From: an alpha proteobacterium SCGC AAA288-N07
Lineage (GTDB): Bacteria > Pseudomonadota > Alphaproteobacteria > Pelagibacterales > Pelagibacteraceae
NCBI GenBank assembly: GCA_000513055.1
Contig: AZYB01000003.1
Span: 1-59,040 of the forward strand
Length of the DNA: 59,040 nt
Direction: 5' to 3'
Both the position numbers and the translations under genes were made by a program. How positions within the stretch are numbered: the stretch's first letter is position 1; the number at the start of each line of letters is the position of its first letter. Shown piece by piece: positions 11,665 through 59,040 of this stretch. Under the pieces are notes generated by a model. It did not search any database, had not been told where the DNA came from, and saw only the letters and a program-made list of their open reading frames with translations.

Positions 11665-12177
11665 ATGAATATTTTTATTACTGGATTACTAATTTTTATA
11701 GTAGTTTATTTAATTCTTAATTGGTTTGCAAAGACTAGTAGCCAAAAAATATCTAGAACTGCTAGAAATTTAATTTTAATTATATCTCTTATTCTGGCTG
11801 TTATAATGCTAATAGGGGGTCGATTACTGGTTTCGCTACCATTGTTTTTTTTGGCCATGAGCGCCTTAAAGATCAAAGGTCTTACAGCTTTTCAGATTTG
11901 GAATCTGTGGAGAGTTCTTAATTACCTTAGAAGCACTGGAAGATTTTCTTATTTTGGTCAAACCAGTCAAACAAGACCATCAAGTAATATATCCTTAGAT
12001 GAGGCTTACAAAATTTTAGGTATAAAAAAAGGGTGTTCAAAGAATGAGGTCATTAAAGCATGTAATACTTTACAAAAAAAACTTCACCCTGATATGAATC
12101 CTAATTCAAATACTGAACATTTGAGTAAAATAATAAATGAAGCTAAAGAAACTATACTCAAAAGTGATTTTACCTAA
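11665..12177 (+). CDS. Membrane-anchored DnaJ-domain protein
   Basis: The 170-residue protein starts with two hydrophobic helices (about residues 2-21 and 36-65) and ends with a J domain (about residues 112-168) that contains LDEAYKILGIKKGCSKNEV and the HPD tripeptide in KLHPDMNPN. The HPD motif is what stimulates Hsp70 ATPase, so it can act with DnaK at the membrane. Middle motifs such as YFGQTSQTRPSS look like a flexible linker. The layout is like the small alphaproteobacterial inner-membrane J proteins and distantly like mitochondrial Tim14. It overlaps the convergent GT9 gene by 4 nt at the ends. Confidence 0.85.
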   Translation: MNIFITGLLIFIVVYLILNWFAKTSSQKISRTARNLILIISLILAVIMLIGGRLLVSLPLFFLAMSALKIKGLTAFQIWNLWRVLNYLRSTGRFSYFGQTSQTRPSSNISLDEAYKILGIKKGCSKNEVIKACNTLQKKLHPDMNPNSNTEHLSKIINEAKETILKSDFT

Positions 12178-13112: not shown

Positions 13113-13157
13113 TTTTTCAATTTATTATAACTTTTAACAAATAAATTGGTTAATAAC

Positions 13158-14048
13158 ATGACTTTATTAAAAGGGATATATTCAGCTGGTCTTAGTGTTT
13201 TAAAAGAGGACCTTTCTCTTGATGAAGAAAAAACCATTAAACATCATGAACATCTAATCGATGAAGGACTTGATGGAACTTTTTTCTTTGGATCTACTGG
13301 CCAAGGTCAATTAATTTCAATAACAGAAAAAAAGAGTCTAATTTCTAAATTAAGTCATAATAAATACAAAGATAGATTTTACTTGGGCACGGGTGTTAAT
13401 TCACTAAGAGACAATGTTGATTTAATAAATCATGCTTTTAATAATGGTTTTGATACTTTTTTAATAATGCCACCGGCTTATTATGTAAATAATTCTCACG
13501 AAGGCGTGTACGCATTTTATGCTAATATTATTCAAAAATTCCCAAAAATTAAAATCATTTTATATAACTTTCAGAAACTTTCCCAGTATCTATTCACACC
13601 ACAAGCTGTTGAGAAACTTGTTAGAGATTTTCCACAAGCGATTCGAGGGTGTAAAGATTCAAGCTACAATCTTTACGAAACTTTACAAATCCCTGAATTT
13701 TCAATGTTACCTGGCAGCGAAACAAAATTACTTCATGGATTACAAAAAGGTGCGAATGGTATTATTAGCGCAGTAACAAATGTAACTCACAGCTTGGCTA
13801 GGAAAGTTTATGACGATTTCCAAAATGGAAAAGAACAAACAGTCAATAAAAAACTTTGTGCAGTAAGAAAAACATTTGATGATGCAGGAAATTTGATTTC
13901 GGCTCTTCATAGCTATATGTCAACAGCAAATGAACAATATAAGAGACTACTACCTCCTTTAACTTTATTATCAGTAGAAAAACAAAAAAAAATGCTGAAC
14001 AAACTTAAGGAATTAGATTTTATTGCAACGAATAATATAGCGGCATAA
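13158..14048 (+). CDS. DapA/NAL-family Schiff-base aldolase
   Basis: From the ATG at 13158 the protein has 296 residues with the TIM-barrel aldolase pattern of the DHDPS/N-acetylneuraminate lyase family. Visible are the strand FFFGSTGQGQLIS near residue 42, the tyrosine region IKIILYNFQKL near 133 and the Schiff-base lysine in RGCKDSSYNL near 162. True dihydrodipicolinate synthase has G-T-T-G-E at the first motif; here it is GSTGQGQ, so another 2-oxo acid (for example a sugar acid) is as likely. An in-frame TTG at 13146 would add four residues, but the ATG is the better start. It is followed 3 nt later by cfa, with no amino acid genes nearby. Confidence 0.8.
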   Translation: MTLLKGIYSAGLSVLKEDLSLDEEKTIKHHEHLIDEGLDGTFFFGSTGQGQLISITEKKSLISKLSHNKYKDRFYLGTGVNSLRDNVDLINHAFNNGFDTFLIMPPAYYVNNSHEGVYAFYANIIQKFPKIKIILYNFQKLSQYLFTPQAVEKLVRDFPQAIRGCKDSSYNLYETLQIPEFSMLPGSETKLLHGLQKGANGIISAVTNVTHSLARKVYDDFQNGKEQTVNKKLCAVRKTFDDAGNLISALHSYMSTANEQYKRLLPPLTLLSVEKQKKMLNKLKELDFIATNNIAA

Positions 14049-14051
14049 ATT

Positions 14052-15242
14052 ATGCGGTTAGCTAAATTTTTAGACAATCTTTTTAAAGAAGACGGATTTG
14101 AATTAATTGATGCAAATTCAAAAAAATATATAATTGGAAATCCAAAAAAAGAAAAACCTTTAACAATAAAGTTATTTGATAAGTCACTACATTATAAGCT
14201 CTTACTTTATCCTGATTTTTATTTTGGGCAAGCCTACGCAGAGGAATCTCTTACTATAGAAAATGGAACACTTACAGAATTTTTAAATATGGCTCTAAAA
14301 AATATTGGAAGAAAAGAAACTAATTTTTTTAGTGAGATATTAAATAAAATTAGGGGATCATATCGATATGTAACAAATTTTAATTTTATAAAAAAATCAA
14401 AAATGAATGTAGCTCATCATTACGATATTTCTGATGATCTATATGATTTATTTCTTGATTCTAAGCGACAGTATTCTTGTGCTTATTATAAAAATGAAAA
14501 TGATTCACTCGAAACAGCTCAAAATAATAAAATAGATCATATAATAAAAAAATTAAATCTAAAACCTAATCAGAAAATATTAGACATAGGCTCTGGGTGG
14601 GGCGCTCTTGCAATTGAAATTGCCAAAAAAACACAGTGCCAGGTTTTGGGTATTACTTTGTCCAAAAATCAATTTGCATACAGTAATAGAAAGGCCAAAG
14701 AAATGAATATGGACAACCAGGTCGAATTTAGACTTTGTGATTACAGGGAAGTGTCAGAAAAATTTGACCGCGTCGTATCAGTTGGCATGTTTGAGCATGT
14801 AGGTAGGAAATTTTATAAAACTTTCTTTCAAAAGATTAATGAAACTTTATATGAAGATGGAATAGCCCTTCTTCATACAATCGGCTCAGTTAATCAGCCT
14901 CGCCAACCTCAACCATGGATAACTCAATATATTTTTCCCGGGGGATATACTCCTAGTTTAAGCGAAGTTATAGTTTCTATTGAAAAATCAGGATTAATTT
15001 TGTCTGATTTAGAAATTTTAAGAATGCATTATTCATATACACTTCGTCATTGGAAAGAACGTTTTATAAAAAACAAAAATAGAGCTTTAAAAATGTTTGA
15101 TGAAAATTTCTACAGGATGTGGCTGTTCTACTTAGTATCCTGCGAGCAAGCTTTTAAATGGGGGGACCAGGTTGTTTTTCAATTGCAATTAACAAAAAGT
15201 CTTCATGCCGCACCAAATACAAGAGACTATATTTATCAATAA
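14052..15242 (+). CDS. cfa: Cyclopropane-fatty-acyl-phospholipid synthase family
   Basis: This SAM-dependent enzyme puts a methylene bridge across double bonds of membrane phospholipid acyl chains. At 396 residues it is of normal length. An N-terminal lipid-binding domain (to about residue 115) is followed by AHHYDISDDLYDLFLD near residue 120, the SAM-binding ILDIGSGWGALAIEIAK near 176, the bicarbonate-site region near VSVGMFEHVG at 241, and IFPGGYTPSL near 296. These match Cfa rather than the short methyltransferases. The gene starts 3 nt after the DapA-like gene and is probably cotranscribed with it. Confidence 0.88.
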   Translation: MRLAKFLDNLFKEDGFELIDANSKKYIIGNPKKEKPLTIKLFDKSLHYKLLLYPDFYFGQAYAEESLTIENGTLTEFLNMALKNIGRKETNFFSEILNKIRGSYRYVTNFNFIKKSKMNVAHHYDISDDLYDLFLDSKRQYSCAYYKNENDSLETAQNNKIDHIIKKLNLKPNQKILDIGSGWGALAIEIAKKTQCQVLGITLSKNQFAYSNRKAKEMNMDNQVEFRLCDYREVSEKFDRVVSVGMFEHVGRKFYKTFFQKINETLYEDGIALLHTIGSVNQPRQPQPWITQYIFPGGYTPSLSEVIVSIEKSGLILSDLEILRMHYSYTLRHWKERFIKNKNRALKMFDENFYRMWLFYLVSCEQAFKWGDQVVFQLQLTKSLHAAPNTRDYIYQ

Positions 15243-15280: not shown

Positions 15281-16429
15281 ATGAAAAAAAAAAGAAATAA
15301 AAAGTTTTCAAAAAAATCAAAAATTTTGAGGAAAAAATTCAAAGTAAAAAAAGTAAAAAAAAGTAAGAAAAGACGTCTAATAAAACAAAAAAGAAAAACT
15401 AAAATTAAACGCCCTAAAAGACAAAAGTTGAAATCAAAAAGGATTAGAAGAACTACTTTTAAAATTAAATCAAAGAAAATAATATTCCCTAATTTTAAGA
15501 AACAAATCAGTCAGCTAAAAAAAATCAGCTTTAAGAAAGTTGTAGTTTTTATTTTCAGACCACTCATAAAATCTTTTGAAGATTATAGACAAAAAAAGAA
15601 AATAAAAAAATTGAAAAAGTTTGAAAAGGAAAGGAAAGAAAAAGAAAAAAAAATTAAATTAGAAGAACAACTAAGACGGATTCTTAAAGAACAAGAGTTA
15701 AGACAAGAAATTAAAATTGAAAAAGAAAGAAAGAAAGACATAAAGAACTTTTTAAAAAAAGAACAAGCAGAAATAAGAAAAGAACAAGCTGAGCGTCAAA
15801 AAAAATTTTTACTTGAATTAAAATTAGCAAAACAAATTGAAAATTTTAAAAAAAGAGAAATAAAAGAACTCCAAAATTTGGAAAGGGTTGCCCTTCAAGA
15901 GGAAAGGTCTGATTATGATGGACTTCAAGCACGTATAGAAAAACTTAAAGAAAAATATAAAGCTATTCGAGATCAGAAAATTAAGGAAAGAGTGGAAGCC
16001 TTAGGAGTAGAGATAAAGCAAGAAGATGATAGAGAAGCTTTATTAGAAAAAGAAAAACAATATACCTTAGAGCGTCAAAAAATAGAAAATTGTCTGGAAA
16101 GTTTTTATAGATCTAGTGTAAGTTTATGTTTTCAAATTTCAAAGCGCTATATCCCTAAGCATCGGTCCATACTTAGATGTATCGATCTTAGATTTGAATC
16201 TGGAGAAATTTATATTCGTTGGGATGATGCTCCAGAAGATGATTGGTTGCTTTTAATTTATATAAAAAACAATTCGCCCAAAGAAAATATTATTATTGAA
16301 GATAAAACTGATCCAGAAAAACATATTTCACACGAATTTAAAACTACAGAAATTTTTAAGGCATCAGATATGATGGTTGACTCTTTAGTTCGATTATTGG
16401 AAAAAGAACGAAAACAAAAAGCTAGCTAA
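15281..16429 (+). CDS. Highly basic coiled-coil protein of unknown function
   Basis: The 382-residue protein has three parts. Residues 1-70 are about half lysine and arginine with hardly any acidic residues. Residues 100-270 are a long charged helix rich in K, E, Q and R, which should form a coiled coil. Residues 275-380 look folded, with an FYRSSVSLCFQISKRY start, IRWDDAPEDDWLLLIYIKN in the middle and an amphipathic C-terminal helix. No signal peptide or membrane helix is present. I recognise no family. The basic start suggests nucleic-acid or acidic-surface binding, by analogy with histone H1-like tails only. It starts 38 nt after cfa and faces the acylphosphatase gene. Confidence 0.7.
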   Translation: MKKKRNKKFSKKSKILRKKFKVKKVKKSKKRRLIKQKRKTKIKRPKRQKLKSKRIRRTTFKIKSKKIIFPNFKKQISQLKKISFKKVVVFIFRPLIKSFEDYRQKKKIKKLKKFEKERKEKEKKIKLEEQLRRILKEQELRQEIKIEKERKKDIKNFLKKEQAEIRKEQAERQKKFLLELKLAKQIENFKKREIKELQNLERVALQEERSDYDGLQARIEKLKEKYKAIRDQKIKERVEALGVEIKQEDDREALLEKEKQYTLERQKIENCLESFYRSSVSLCFQISKRYIPKHRSILRCIDLRFESGEIYIRWDDAPEDDWLLLIYIKNNSPKENIIIEDKTDPEKHISHEFKTTEIFKASDMMVDSLVRLLEKERKQKAS

Positions 16430-17401: not shown

Positions 17402-17917
17402 TTATTTCTTTTTACATAGACCAATAGATTCCAAGCTGCATTTGGTTCCATCAGTCCAGGTAGCATTATTGAGATTGGCACCTTCAAAGTTTGCATTAAG
17501 AACATTTGCGGCAGTAAAATCTGCCCCTACTAAATTACTGTTTTTAAAAGAAGCTCCGATTAAAGAAGCTCCGTTAAATTTAACTCGCGTTAGGTTTGAA
17601 GATTCAAAATTTGACCCTTCAAAATTTCCACCTTCCAGAATAGATTCGTAAAGATTTGCTCGGAAAAATGAGGATTCTGCAAAATTGCCATTAGAAAGAT
17701 TGGAATGCATCATCATGCTTTGATCAAAATTAACCTTGTTAAATGAAGTAAGACTTAAATTTGAATTTGTTAAATAGCTTGTACTTAAATCTTGGCCAGA
17801 AGCAAACTGGCATCCTGAATAGTCCACACTGTCTCCTGGCTTATCCTCGCAAGTTGCTTCTACTTTTAAAGTAAAACTCATTAAAAAAAACAAAATAAAA
17901 AAAATCTGTTTAAACAT
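17402..17917 (-). CDS. Exported pentapeptide-repeat protein
   Basis: The 171-residue protein starts with a signal peptide (IFFILFFLMSFTLKVEA, cleavage likely near residue 21). From about residue 35 it consists of pentapeptide repeats of the A(N/D)LXX type, such as FRANLYES, NFEGSNF, NLVGADF and NANFEGANL. They should build a right-handed quadrilateral beta helix of about six coils. Two Cys pairs flank the helix (CEDKPGDSVDYSGC and CSLESIGLC), fitting an oxidising compartment. Function is unknown; known pentapeptide proteins include DNA-gyrase protectors, but those are cytosolic. Confidence 0.8.
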   Translation of the reverse strand: MFKQIFFILFFLMSFTLKVEATCEDKPGDSVDYSGCQFASGQDLSTSYLTNSNLSLTSFNKVNFDQSMMMHSNLSNGNFAESSFFRANLYESILEGGNFEGSNFESSNLTRVKFNGASLIGASFKNSNLVGADFTAANVLNANFEGANLNNATWTDGTKCSLESIGLCKKK

Positions 17918-19341: not shown

Positions 19342-19418
19342 GCAGCAGTAGCTCAGTAGGTTAGAGCACTAGTTTGTGGAACTAGGGGTCGGTGGTTCGA
19401 ATCCACCCTGCTGTACCA
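19342..19418 (+). tRNA. tRNA-His (GUG), lacking G-1 and C73
   Basis: A full cloverleaf: acceptor GCAGCAG with CTGCTGT (first pair G-U), anticodon stem CTAGT/ACTAG around the loop TTGTGGA (anticodon GTG at 19376-19378), T stem GGTGG/CCACC and encoded CCA. The base before position 1 is T instead of the G-1 found in nearly all tRNA-His, and the discriminator is A instead of C. Loss of this signature is known from a set of alphaproteobacteria that includes Pelagibacter. It ends 5 nt before hisS. Confidence 0.96.
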
Positions 19419-19423
19419 AAATA

Positions 19424-20851
19424 ATGAGCACAGAAAAAAATCTTAAACCCTCTAAGGAATTACCTTTAGGTTTTGTAGACAGACAAGAAAAAGAATTATT
19501 AATCCGTGATTTTGTAATTTCTAATATTAAAGAAGTTATGATTAATTATGGATTTCAATATCTCGAGACACCAAGTTTTGAGTATACGGATAGTATTGGA
19601 AAATTTTTGCCCGACAAGGAAAGGCCAGACGAAGGTGTGTTCTCCTTCAAAGACGGAAAGAATTGGTTATCCCTTCGATATGATCTTACGGCTCCACTAG
19701 CCAGATATGTTGCAAAAAACTATCTTGAACTTCCTAAACCTTTCAAGCGTTATCAATTAGGAACGGTATGGAGAAATGAAAAACCTGGCCCAGGAAGATA
19801 TAGAGAGTTCTTACAATTTGATGCAGATTATATTGCGACTGGGAACTTGATTGCTGATGCTGAATTATGTGCGATGATTTCAGAAATACTTAAAAAATGT
19901 GGGCTTACAGAAAAAGATTTTACTATAAAATTTTCTTCAAGAAAAGTTCTCGATAAACTATTTGAATATATTAAAGTAAATTCAGCAGAGACAAGACTTA
20001 AAATTTTAAGATCTTTGGATAAAGTAGATAGACTGGGATGGAAAGAGGTAGAAAAACTTTTAGGCAAAGGAAGAAAAGATTTGTCTGGTGATTTTACGAA
20101 AGGAGCTGGTTTAACTGAAATTCAAATTAATGAGATTAAAGAACAATTGAATTATGAAGGAAAAAAAATAACAACCACGAACCCACCGCCTGATGGTAAA
20201 ACATATGATTTTGATCAATGGTCAAAAAAATGGGGAGAAAAAGAAGCAGAACCAGTTAGTAATGAATTTATAGAATTCGAGGAATGCTTAACTTCATTTG
20301 GTTTGAAAAACTGTATTTTTGATCCAACAATAATCAGGGGACTCGAATATTATACAGGTCTAGTATTTGAAGTTAATCTTAATTTTGAAGTTAGAAATCC
20401 AAAAGGACAGGTCGTTAAATTCGGATCCGTGGGCGGTGGTGGAAGATATGATAATCTTGTAAGCAATTTTGGAAAAGGAATCGATTGTCCTGCAACGGGA
20501 ATATCAATTGGTATTGATAGACTTGTTTTTGCTTTAATACAAAAAAAAGATTTTAAGATAAAAATTACTCGACCAGTAATTATTTGTGTTTTTGATCGAT
20601 TACAAAATGATAAATATATAAAGATATTAAAGAAGCTTAGAGCATCAGGCATCAGTTCTGAGATTTATCCAGGAGAAGGTAAATTAAAAAAACAAATGGA
20701 GTATGCAAACAAAATAGGTTCTCCAGCCGTTATTTTTTATGGTGACGATGAAATAAAATCAGGAAAAGCGACTTTAAAAAATCTTGAGACTGGTAACGAG
20801 AGCTCCGTTAAAGTCGAGGATCTAGCAAATGAAATCAAAAAATTACTCTGA
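19424..20851 (+). CDS. hisS: Histidyl-tRNA synthetase
   Basis: A class II synthetase that charges tRNA-His. The ATG at 19424 lies just after the tRNA gene and gives 475 residues. Motif 2 is seen in the KRYQLGTVWRNEKPGPGRYREF region near residue 107, and the histidine A box as RGLEYYTGLVFEV near 305. Motif 3 reads ATGISIGIDRL near 356, and an anticodon-binding domain follows from about residue 380. It is longer than the roughly 425 residues of E. coli HisRS because of the middle insert seen in alphaproteobacterial enzymes, which fits the altered tRNA-His in front of it. It overlaps hisZ by 23 nt. Confidence 0.93.
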   Translation: MSTEKNLKPSKELPLGFVDRQEKELLIRDFVISNIKEVMINYGFQYLETPSFEYTDSIGKFLPDKERPDEGVFSFKDGKNWLSLRYDLTAPLARYVAKNYLELPKPFKRYQLGTVWRNEKPGPGRYREFLQFDADYIATGNLIADAELCAMISEILKKCGLTEKDFTIKFSSRKVLDKLFEYIKVNSAETRLKILRSLDKVDRLGWKEVEKLLGKGRKDLSGDFTKGAGLTEIQINEIKEQLNYEGKKITTTNPPPDGKTYDFDQWSKKWGEKEAEPVSNEFIEFEECLTSFGLKNCIFDPTIIRGLEYYTGLVFEVNLNFEVRNPKGQVVKFGSVGGGGRYDNLVSNFGKGIDCPATGISIGIDRLVFALIQKKDFKIKITRPVIICVFDRLQNDKYIKILKKLRASGISSEIYPGEGKLKKQMEYANKIGSPAVIFYGDDEIKSGKATLKNLETGNESSVKVEDLANEIKKLL

Positions 20852-21881
20852 AAATATAATAAAAGTTTTTAAGAAAGATGGTTTTGTTTTATCAGAACCA
20901 GATGTTCTTTTAGATTCGGATTATATTATTCAAAGATCAGGCGAAAATTTTAGAAAACTAATGCTCACCTTTGAAGACGATACTGGGAAAAGTATGTGTC
21001 TAAGACCAGATTTGACGGTTGCTTCCTGTATAAAATATTTAAAAGGTAATTCTAAAGCAAATTCGAAAATTTTTTACTCAGGACAAGCCTACAGAAGATC
21101 AAATAGTCCAAAAGATAAGGTTATTAATGATCAGTTAGGAATAGAAATTTTAGGTTCTAAAAATAAATCTACTGATGATTTAAAAGTTTTAAAAACAATT
21201 GCTAATTCAATTAAAAAAATAAAAATAAAAAATACTTCGATCACAATAGGCGATGTAAGTTTATTTCAAAAGTTAATAGAGTCTTTAAAAATTCCAGAAA
21301 GATGGAAGATAAGACTAAAGAGACACTTTTGGAGACCCCAATATTTTGAAGATCTGCTTAATAGACTTGAAACTAACTCTGATATAGATCCTACGGCAAT
21401 TAACTTAGATAAAAAAAAATTTTCTGAGATGAAAAACCTTGATCAAAGTAAAGAAATTGCAAACCGTAAAATTTCTGAAATTTTGTCTAGATTTGACAGA
21501 AAAATAAAAGACCCAAGATCATTTGGAGAAAATAAAAAAGTTGTGAAAATTATTAGAGAGTTTTTAAAAATTAATTGCTCAATTGATAAACTAGAGAAAA
21601 CTTTAAAAAGTTTTGTTAAAAAAAACAAATTAAGCAACAGTGTTTTCAAAGATTTATCAACTATAAAAAATTTATCAAAAATAAATTCAAAAACTGTTTT
21701 TTCAACAAACTTTGGTAGAGATATTGAATATTATACTGGAATAGTTTTTGAGATATATAACTCATCAAAAAAAGAGATAGCAAGAGGTGGAAGATATGAT
21801 GGTTTATTGAAAAGTCTTGGATCTAAAAAAAATATTTCAGCAGTTGGAGCTGCAATTAATTTAAACAATTTACAAACATGA
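20829..21881 (+). CDS. hisZ: ATP phosphoribosyltransferase regulatory subunit
   Basis: HisZ is a HisRS-like protein without charging activity that forms a complex with short HisG and makes it active and histidine-sensitive. The 350 residues show the class II fold: MCLRPDLTVASCIKYL near residue 56, FYSGQAYRRSN near 80, FGRDIEYYTGIVFEIYN near 297 and ARGGRYDGLLK near 317. The anticodon-binding domain is absent, as expected. The start overlaps the end of hisS by 23 nt and the end overlaps hisG by 4 nt, so the three are translated together. Confidence 0.88.
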   Translation: MKSKNYSENIIKVFKKDGFVLSEPDVLLDSDYIIQRSGENFRKLMLTFEDDTGKSMCLRPDLTVASCIKYLKGNSKANSKIFYSGQAYRRSNSPKDKVINDQLGIEILGSKNKSTDDLKVLKTIANSIKKIKIKNTSITIGDVSLFQKLIESLKIPERWKIRLKRHFWRPQYFEDLLNRLETNSDIDPTAINLDKKKFSEMKNLDQSKEIANRKISEILSRFDRKIKDPRSFGENKKVVKIIREFLKINCSIDKLEKTLKSFVKKNKLSNSVFKDLSTIKNLSKINSKTVFSTNFGRDIEYYTGIVFEIYNSSKKEIARGGRYDGLLKSLGSKKNISAVGAAINLNNLQT

Positions 21882-57028: not shown

Positions 57029-59040
57029 CTATGCAACCAATTTTTCAGCTTTTTCAAGATCTACTGCAACCAACTGGCTAACTCCTTTTTCAGGCATTGT
57101 TATACCATATAATCTATTCATTTTTGACATAGTTAGAGCATGATGTGTAACAATAATAAATTTTGTTCTAGTTATTTTTACCAATTCCTCGAGTAAATTA
57201 CAAAATCTTGATACATTAGCATCATCTAGGGGTGCATCTACTTCATCCAAAAAGCATATTTGAGCTGGGTTAGTTAAAAAAACTGCAAAAATTAATGATA
57301 GAGCAGTTAGTGCCTGTTCTCCACCCGAAAGAAGAGTTATTGATTGTAACCTTTTGCCTGGAGGACTTGCTAGCATTTCTAAACCAGCTTCTAAAGGATC
57401 ATCGTAATCTACTAATTCTAATTTAGCGCTTCCTCCATTAAATAATTTTGTGTATACCTCATTAAATTTTCTATTTACCTTTTCGAAAGCCTCAATTAAT
57501 CTTTTTCTTCCTTTTTGATTTAGCTCATTAATACTTGCTTTTAATTTAATTATTGCTGAAACTAAATCTTCTCGGTCTTTTTGCATTTTGATGATTTCCA
57601 TTTTAGATTGTTTTGTCTCTACATCTGCTCTCAAATTTACTGAACCAAGCTTATCTCTTTCCCTTTTTTTTTCATCCAAAGCCTCTTCTTGTTCCAAAGC
57701 ATTTAGAAAAGTATCTTTTCCAAATAAATTAGATGAATTAAACAAGTTAGATTCATTAAGATCAAGATCACTTTCAATGTGTTCCAATAAATCTTTTTTT
57801 CTGTTTAATAAGCCTTCCGTCTTAGCAGAAGCACTAGCTCTTTTTTCTCTCGCGAGCATAACTTTTTCTTGTACAATTTTTAATTTTTTATTGTGATCTT
57901 CATAAATTAACTCAGCTTTATTTGTTTCTTTCTCAATCTGTAATTTTTCTTGTTCTGTTGTTTTAACCATTTGTAAAGTTTGACCTTTTTCAATGGCAAT
58001 ATTTTCAGGTAGCTTTTCCAAGTTAATCAAATTTTGGACAATCTTTTCCTTTCTTGTTTTTAATTCATTCATCATTTTTTCCGAATTAGAATTCAAATTT
58101 TTCCAATTTTTAATTTCTTCATCAATATTTTTTATTCTTTCTTGTCTTTTTATTGAGTCAGCCTTTATAGTTTGATTTTTACCATATGCTGTAGCATAAC
58201 TTTCTTGTGAAATTTTTAATTTATTATTCAATTTATTTAGTTCCACCAATATTTGGTTATCTGTTGTGTTTTCAAATTTTGAAATCAATTTTTTTAAACT
58301 AATCATTGACTTATCTATTAAGTTATATGAATCGTTAATATTACCTTCCTTCATATGTTTATGGCATTTCTCTAAGTCTGATAAAGTTTCTTTAATGATT
58401 GCCAAATTTTCCTTTGAACCAGAATTTTTAACCAAATCATGAGAGGTTTTTTCGAGCTTTTCTTGCTCGTTTTTAAGGTTTTCCGTAGCTATGTTTAAGT
58501 CATGACCGGCTTGTTTTTCAAGTTCATAATATTTTGTTTCGGTATCAATTAAATCTTTTTTTTCTTCCTTCAATCTTTTTTCATTGGAAGAAGCATCAAT
58601 TATTATCCTTTTTTCTCTATCTATATCTATGTCTAATGTTTTATCAGAACTAACTAAAGTATCTTTCTCATTTTTTATTCTAATTTCTTGTTCTTCTAGA
58701 TTTTTTATTTCTAGATTTAATCTTTGTAATTTGGAAAGTATCTCAATATTTTTGTCTCTCAAAGGTTTTAGTTTTAAATTTTCCTGTTCTAGCAATTCAT
58801 GACAATGATTTAGCTCAATTGTTAATCCGCTTACTTCATCATCAAATTCACTAATGCTTTCATTTTCCAATTTAATATCTTTTTTAATATTATCTAATTT
58901 CAAATAGTAAAGACCTGCTTCAAATTTTTTTATTTCTCCTGAAATCATTTTGTATTTTGTTGCCTCTTCTGCTTGTTTCTTTAAATTTTCCAATTGTTTT
59001 TCCTGTTGTCTTCTTAGTTCGTCTGCTCTTTTTAAATTAT
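57029..59040 (-). CDS. smc: Chromosome segregation protein SMC, C-terminal part, no hinge seen
   Basis: The frame runs off the right edge; about 670 residues are visible. The start of the visible part (RADELRRQQEKQLENLKKQAEEA) matches the coiled coil that follows the N-terminal head in SMC. Near residue 463 comes LGSVNLRADVE, then the C-terminal head with LLSGGEQALTALSL (ABC signature) and ICFLDEVDAPLDDANV (Walker B). The head and the ring-forming coiled coil condense DNA with ScpAB. Between the two landmarks lie only about 460 residues, against roughly 770 in usual SMC proteins, and I see no glycine-rich hinge domain. A turn may occur near KCHKHMKEGNINDSYNLI. Confidence 0.85.
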   Translation of the reverse strand, partial: NLKRADELRRQQEKQLENLKKQAEEATKYKMISGEIKKFEAGLYYLKLDNIKKDIKLENESISEFDDEVSGLTIELNHCHELLEQENLKLKPLRDKNIEILSKLQRLNLEIKNLEEQEIRIKNEKDTLVSSDKTLDIDIDREKRIIIDASSNEKRLKEEKKDLIDTETKYYELEKQAGHDLNIATENLKNEQEKLEKTSHDLVKNSGSKENLAIIKETLSDLEKCHKHMKEGNINDSYNLIDKSMISLKKLISKFENTTDNQILVELNKLNNKLKISQESYATAYGKNQTIKADSIKRQERIKNIDEEIKNWKNLNSNSEKMMNELKTRKEKIVQNLINLEKLPENIAIEKGQTLQMVKTTEQEKLQIEKETNKAELIYEDHNKKLKIVQEKVMLAREKRASASAKTEGLLNRKKDLLEHIESDLDLNESNLFNSSNLFGKDTFLNALEQEEALDEKKRERDKLGSVNLRADVETKQSKMEIIKMQKDREDLVSAIIKLKASINELNQKGRKRLIEAFEKVNRKFNEVYTKLFNGGSAKLELVDYDDPLEAGLEMLASPPGKRLQSITLLSGGEQALTALSLIFAVFLTNPAQICFLDEVDAPLDDANVSRFCNLLEELVKITRTKFIIVTHHALTMSKMNRLYGITMPEKGVSQLVAVDLEKAEKLVA

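Follow-up and report, generated by a model that had tools for sequence, protein, structure and literature searches.

Histone H1-like proteins occur in bacteria (Hc1, AlgP and BpH1), and tails of the histone H1 type are rich in alanine and proline, with a KAAK-type composition. GapR is a small, basic, helical nucleoid protein of the Alphaproteobacteria. SAR11 genomes are streamlined, and the organization of the nucleoid and cytoplasm in the very small cells of these bacteria is poorly known. A COILS survey of P. ubique HTCC1062 reports three proteins with more than 100 residues of coiled coil and two rod-domain proteins of unknown function, one of which may be the protein described here (Bagchi and others, PMC2680258). 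A literature search returned nothing on a lysine-rich Pelagibacter protein or a SAR11 histone-like nucleoid protein.

Here we analyzed a gene in a window of 59,040 nucleotides (the whole stretch of DNA under study). Its product combines a polybasic tail, a short amphipathic segment, a 148-residue predicted charged helix and an alpha-beta5-alpha C-terminal domain. The family it represents is a genuine part of the SAR11 core and apparently undescribed, and provides a concrete, testable component of cell organization in this group.

Distribution and genomic context

The gene and the two genes upstream of it are located as follows.

15281..16429, forward strand: the whole gene, ATG start, 382 amino acids (open reading frame)
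14052..15242, forward strand: CMAS, cyclopropane-fatty-acid-synthase-like (Pfam CMAS, 1.1e-92)
13146..14048, forward strand: DapA-like gene, often conserved beside the locus (profile match, locus comparison)

The in-frame opening upstream of the ATG comprises only nine codons. Searches with the C-terminal part of the protein revealed one match per genome in 232 of 248 Pelagibacteraceae genomes, a set of genomes at least 85% complete plus the window's own 66%-complete genome. At ≥90% completeness and ≤5% contamination, the gene was present in 136 of 140 Pelagibacteraceae genomes. No match was found outside the family: those in a class sample (4/289) and a phylum sample (2/397), which overlap, all fell within it, the sister family was negative by single-protein search (0/24 genomes) and by profile (0/12), and viral contigs and phage records contained no match to the protein. 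A scan of named genomes identified at least 69 loci; among the matches listed, 68 were titled Pelagibacter, Pelagibacteraceae or Pelagibacterales, and one locus was titled only Alpha proteobacterium. In the sister family, the neighboring peptidase gene served as a guide to the corresponding location; it was present in 3/5 genomes, with no match there to the other window genes tried.

We also examined the 16 family genomes without a match, 8 of which hold the adjacent DapA-like gene (strong match). In seven of the eight misses that could be examined, the contig breaks off shortly before the gene or within it: in the last part of CMAS (G104, G227 and G256), in the tail (G030, G222 and G235) or approximately 390 bases past the tail (G204). 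In G274 (87% complete; L148, G274:C16), the CMAS frame breaks off near residue 89 and is fused to peptidase S9 sequence, which may reflect a misassembly or a real deletion of the gene. The misses at ≥90% completeness were G030, G204, G104 and G114; in G114 the ortholog of the neighboring gene was likewise not found. Given the contig ends in G030, G204 and G104, carriage of the gene among the Pelagibacteraceae is effectively universal. Taken together, these data identify a single-copy core gene that is restricted to the Pelagibacteraceae (SAR11) in the sampled genomes. The retention of a gene of unknown function in nearly all sampled members of the family, and in no sampled outsider, makes a central role likely. 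As a separate observation, draft contigs often end at or before the A-rich tail (15281-15700, L149-L155), and the gene can be missed in drafts.

Comparison of loci revealed an upstream order of peptidase S9, DnaJ, glycosyltransferase 9, DapA-like gene, CMAS and then the gene itself. This order was full or nearly so in six genera (g1-g5, g10) and partial in three (g6, g7, g9); g12 had too little upstream DNA and was left out of this judgement. The 3' end of CMAS lies 38 bases before the gene start on the same strand, and CMAS adjoins the gene in many, not all, genera; it is missing at the HTCC1062 locus. Downstream genes vary between genera. Among the compared loci, a cluster of acylphosphatase, PCMT, pentapeptide and NadE genes was confined to the genus of the window (L049, L127, L133), and two genera (L128, L132) carry next downstream what we take to be rmuC-, sbcB- and trxA-like genes.

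The HTCC1062 ortholog is located at G028:C1:176702-177877. Gene counting assigns it the probable, though not certain, tag SAR11_0174, using groES (SAR11_0161), rhodanese (SAR11_0171) and Hsp20 (SAR11_0181, ibpA) as landmarks; the order of these three genes also supports the assignment of G028 to HTCC1062. Counting from SAR11_0171 gives this tag, and the back-count from SAR11_0181 agrees if one gene spans the join of two stretches. Two points do not fit: the count from SAR11_0161 falls one short, and the published name of SAR11_0173 (hydrolase) is unlike the gene counted as _0173. The tag SAR11_0174 occurred in none of the paper texts searched, in which SAR11_0171, _0173 and _0181 are named.

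Other genes of the window were also noted. The DnaJ-domain protein at 11665-12177, conserved near the locus, has an N-terminal hydrophobic region and presumably a TIM14-like layout. The product of 17402-17917 contains pentapeptide repeats and, judged by eye, a signal-like N-terminus. A second histidyl-tRNA-synthetase-like protein (20829-21881), which we take to be HisZ-like, directly follows a HisS-like open reading frame at 19376-20851 (named by eye). At the right edge, 57029-58993 encodes a large SMC_N protein (654-aa open reading frame, TTG start) that is possibly cut by the contig end.

Tail, amphipathic segment and rod

An AlphaFold2 model based on a 35-member family alignment had a pLDDT of at least 90 for 206 residues and a pTM of 0.45. 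Residues 1-92 were essentially disordered (pLDDT ~50 or below), with a low-confidence helix at 28-36, and were followed in order by two helices (93-240 and 251-289), five strands located between residues 298 and 353, and a last helix (358-381). Inspection of the protein by eye revealed no signal peptide or membrane span. The N-terminal part comprises three features.

15281..15505, forward strand: polybasic disordered tail, residues 1-75 (K/R count, pLDDT, base-shuffle control)
15530..15583, forward strand: amphipathic segment between tail and rod, residues 84-101, FKKVVVFIFRPLIKSFED (muH 0.53)
15557..16000, forward strand: long charged helix (rod), residues 93-240, ~22 nm if straight (AlphaFold2, periodicity)

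A first-pass annotation, made from the sequence alone, had proposed a basic, histone-like N-terminus. Its charge was confirmed by 40 K/R in residues 1-70 (57%), with 36 K/R and zero D/E in residues 1-60; its composition was not histone-like, since alanine and proline account for only 1.0% and 1.5% of residues over 96 tails. The basic tail was present in 99 of 99 full-length loci examined. Using an upstream-ATG rule, 96 of these had at least 15 K/R within the first 40 residues, and the remaining three (L067, L071, L127) had a basic stretch in frame once non-ATG starts were allowed. Composition over 96 tails, a redundant set, was K 49.6%, R 9.7% and D+E 0.6%, compared with K 34.3%, R 4.7%, D+E 5.5% and 9.9% stops in base-shuffled tails (K+R, 59% in real tails versus 39%). 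This exclusion of acidic residues beyond the base-shuffled expectation indicates that the tail is more than a by-product of A-rich DNA.

Pooled pN/pS was 0.51 for the tail, 0.22 for the rod and 0.086 for the C-terminal part (175 pairs that are non-independent and near synonymous saturation, with the tail hard to align). An acidic residue was involved in 93 of 4098 tail differences over the 175 pairs. The composition of the tail is under selection, and its residue sequence is only loosely constrained. Tail length before the amphipathic segment varied from 44 to 110 residues (37 rows), and the net charge upstream of the segment was +25 to +63 in 36/37 rows and +32 to +63 in 34/37. Two tails were lengthened by tandem duplication, with 4.4 copies of a 36-base unit in L004 and 2.4 copies of a 63-base unit in L023; both units are multiples of three and encode basic units. 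The window's own tail contains short low-scoring repeats only. Of the unselected tail of random length that the first-pass annotation had named as grounds for refutation, only the variable length among relatives was observed; the composition is selected.

The main residues of the tail are K, R, I, S and N, a composition that suits RNA as well as DNA. The tail might bind rRNA or mRNA in the manner of ribosomal proteins with basic extensions, with the C-terminal domain recruiting a factor. We consider this unlikely: the K:R ratio is ~5:1, whereas RNA-binding tails are often Arg-rich, and no translation gene is conserved beside the gene in the compared loci. An AT-rich genome also favors lysine.

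The main rival to a nucleic-acid tether is a membrane anchor, in which the tail and amphipathic segment would attach to the inner membrane, which is anionic, while the rod would place the C-terminal domain as a scaffold ~20 nm into the cytoplasm. Such an anchor is favored by the position of the segment, directly after the tail and 295-315 residues from the C-terminus in 29/37 rows; this distance was 248-257 residues in four rows (two genera) and 206, 321, 333 and 377 residues in the other four. The maximum hydrophobic moment after the tail was also higher in the family than in shuffled segments (mean 0.59 versus 0.42), and CMAS and glycosyltransferase neighbors point the same way. However, the segment in each row was chosen as the best-scoring window, and only 13/33 rows individually exceeded their own shuffles at p<0.05. 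In the model the rod begins within the segment (residue 93), so that the segment may simply be its first part or a dimer contact, and the charge of the tail is far above anchoring needs. On balance we regard a membrane anchor as rather unlikely.

The rod had been described in the first-pass annotation as a coiled coil, with about 170 residues of charged helix. The charged helix was retained in the AlphaFold2 model at a length of 148 residues; the coiled coil was poorly supported, above all for residues 93-183, where the heptad signal was absent. The power of the 3.5-residue periodicity was 0.3-0.8 in 56-residue windows starting at 93-128 (covering 93-183) and 1.4-3.6 in windows starting at 135-184 (2.0-3.6 from 142 on). 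For comparison, the power in the SMC fragment encoded on the same stretch of DNA, head included, reached 7.0 at most, with a median of 2.55; across 930 windows from orthologs the median was 1.28. Salt bridges at (i,i+4) did not score clearly above shuffles (1.4 versus -0.4, sd 5.7). As modelled, the rod is a charged helix that may be either a coiled coil or a single alpha-helix, and its length, estimated from the distance between the amphipathic segment and the C-terminus, is near constant in most genera.

A rod of this kind could belong to an intermediate-filament-like cytoskeletal protein whose head domain would be the basic tail. The heptad power in windows starting at 142 or later is near the SMC median, and the protein may be one of the two rod-domain proteins in the HTCC1062 survey (PMC2680258). 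Against this stand the absent heptad signal over 93-183, a conserved globular C-terminal domain and a rod length that shifts by ~50-70 residues between genera, and we consider a cytoskeletal rod quite improbable.

The C-terminal domain

The C-terminal domain comprises the following elements.

16031..16147, forward strand: first helix of the domain, residues 251-289 (AlphaFold2, conservation)
16172..16339, forward strand: five-stranded beta sheet, residues 298-353 (AlphaFold2, block pLDDT 90-96)
16220..16246, forward strand: conserved acidic loop WDDAPEDDW, residues 314-322 (35-row alignment)
16352..16423, forward strand: C-terminal helix, residues 358-381, with a basic tip at its end (AlphaFold2, conservation)

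The folded domain with WDDAPEDDW that had been proposed from the sequence was confidently modelled by AlphaFold2, and a separate model of residues 190-382 revealed the same C-terminal elements (mean pLDDT 86.5). Invariant and near-invariant residues are concentrated in this domain, in agreement with the strong conservation of the C-terminal part. Helix 251-289 is highly conserved, with ESFYRS..SLCFQ.SKRYI in the window protein and NKRYI in most relatives. Each of the 35 aligned members carries 3-6 acidic residues in the acidic loop. The conservation of this loop in every row alongside a strongly basic tail would suit a polyanion store or condensate, in which the tail would hold either polyphosphate or further copies of the protein by their acidic loops; the mean net charge of the domain is only slightly negative, which argues against this arrangement, and we judge it very improbable.

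Profile and structure searches gave no convincing match to a described family, in line with the first-pass annotation. The window protein and ten further members per library reached no curated cut-off in Pfam or NCBIfam, and the best E values over 35 members were 0.0011 and 3.7e-4, respectively. PHROGs gave no convincing match among the 35 members (best E 0.0021), and a PDB profile search returned nothing below E 0.36. Several weak candidates were rejected. FloT, presumably a coiled-coil protein (best E 3.7e-4, 2/35 members), and K_trans_C (E 0.0011, 1/35 members) were scattered matches of the kind expected from chance or low complexity. DUF6514 (PF20124) scored 16.2 bits with the whole window protein and 17.9 bits with its C-terminal part, compared with a cut-off of 23.9. 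DUF3090/TIGR03847 appeared below threshold in 5 (Pfam) and 7 (NCBIfam) of the 35 members (best E 0.0036 and 0.0038), and kinship was not supported, with 12.5 and 14.7 bits in two members compared with a cut-off of 117.

The structure prediction and fold search of the C-terminal part, proposed earlier as a check, yielded a folded domain with no significant Foldseek match in the PDB (none at E ≤0.001 for the full or domain-only model) or among viral models (best 0.061). VIA returned CapZ alpha (Z 8.9 over 98 residues at 3.4 Å), a Mediator chain (Z 7.9), CyaY (Z 7.4 over 96 residues at 3.8 Å) and YjbR (Z 6.6), all of which consist of a sheet with flanking helices. The stated typical best Z of VIA for unmatched models is 7-8, which places CapZ alpha just above background and CyaY within it. 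These matches reflect a generic alpha-beta5-alpha arrangement, with Z values at or just above background. Frataxin (PF01491) did not appear when the window protein was compared with Pfam (E up to 1), nor among the matches listed for the 35 members (25/30 Pfam families). The empty match lists do not exclude a known fold for the domain.

Proposed role and comparison with known systems

One match in each of 232 of the 248 genomes, a C-terminal pN/pS of 0.086 and an acid-poor tail together place this family beyond chance. The layout had been suggested to suit a tether, a view that the modelled anatomy upholds. Our preferred reading, with a probability of roughly 0.4, is that the protein is a SAR11 core cytosolic tether whose tail binds a polyanion, most likely chromosomal DNA, for tethering or cross-linking the nucleoid. 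The polybasic tail would grip the polyanion non-specifically, and a predicted rod of ~20 nm would carry the compact alpha-beta5-alpha domain with its conserved acidic loop. This domain would project off the DNA and dock on a partner or on another copy, and the net effect would be a nucleoid that is tethered or cross-linked.

DNA is preferred as the target because of the very high charge of the tail. Its net charge exceeds that of usual membrane basic clusters and resembles that of H1-type DNA-condensing tails. Given the amphipathic segment, a membrane role is also conceivable. In favor of the preferred reading we count the lack of a signal peptide or membrane span (by eye), the near-constant rod, the low pN/pS of the C-terminal part (0.086), a universal tail freer of acid than its base composition predicts, grown by in-frame duplication in two members, and the rmuC- and sbcB-like genes downstream (two genera only). 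The absence of a GapR match in 61/61 relatives is counted on the same side: PF10073 was found in 0/61 genomes of the order, including the window's own and 30 other carriers of the gene, and a Caulobacter control was positive.

Other observations count against the nucleoid reading. GapR is likewise absent from the sister family, which also lacks the gene. The window's own genome has an HU match, and SMC_N proteins were found in 61/61 relatives and MreB in 59/61, so there is no obvious missing function to fill; the idea of such a function was dropped, as the presence pattern of the gene matches neither MreB and SMC_N (throughout present) nor GapR (throughout absent). A membrane role would fit equally well with the amphipathic segment and with CMAS and a glycosyltransferase as neighbors, and the residue sequence of the tail is loosely constrained (pN/pS 0.51). 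A more specific form of the nucleoid tether, a private and universal Pelagibacteraceae chromatin tether with an H1-charge tail and a ~20 nm rod that organizes a tiny nucleoid without GapR, is doubtful. Separately, a second HU-like match with stop codons was noted at G000:C33:3796-4063 (L144, L145); the intact HU is at G000:C7.

Comparison with known systems revealed partial likeness in each case. The C-terminal domain shares with the CapZ alpha central domain and with frataxin/CyaY a helix, a five-stranded antiparallel sheet and a helix, a likeness of fold at most; identity is 5-7%, Foldseek E is at least 0.58 and there is no sequence match. GapR (PF10073) lacks such a C-terminal domain, and the SAR11 protein has no match to its profile. 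Crescentin and FilP share a charged helical rod between terminal regions, with no catalytic domain recognized. Their rods are segmented coiled coils of more than 80 residues; the rod of the SAR11 protein is modelled as a 148-residue helix, with heptads absent over 93-183 and modest thereafter (periodicity). A conserved folded C-terminal domain and a polybasic tail set the SAR11 protein apart. Bacterial histone H1-like proteins likewise have a long disordered tail that is rich in lysine, poor in acidic residues and similarly charged; the tail of the SAR11 protein differs from theirs in being N-terminal, in its low alanine and proline content, and in leading into a long helix with a folded domain.
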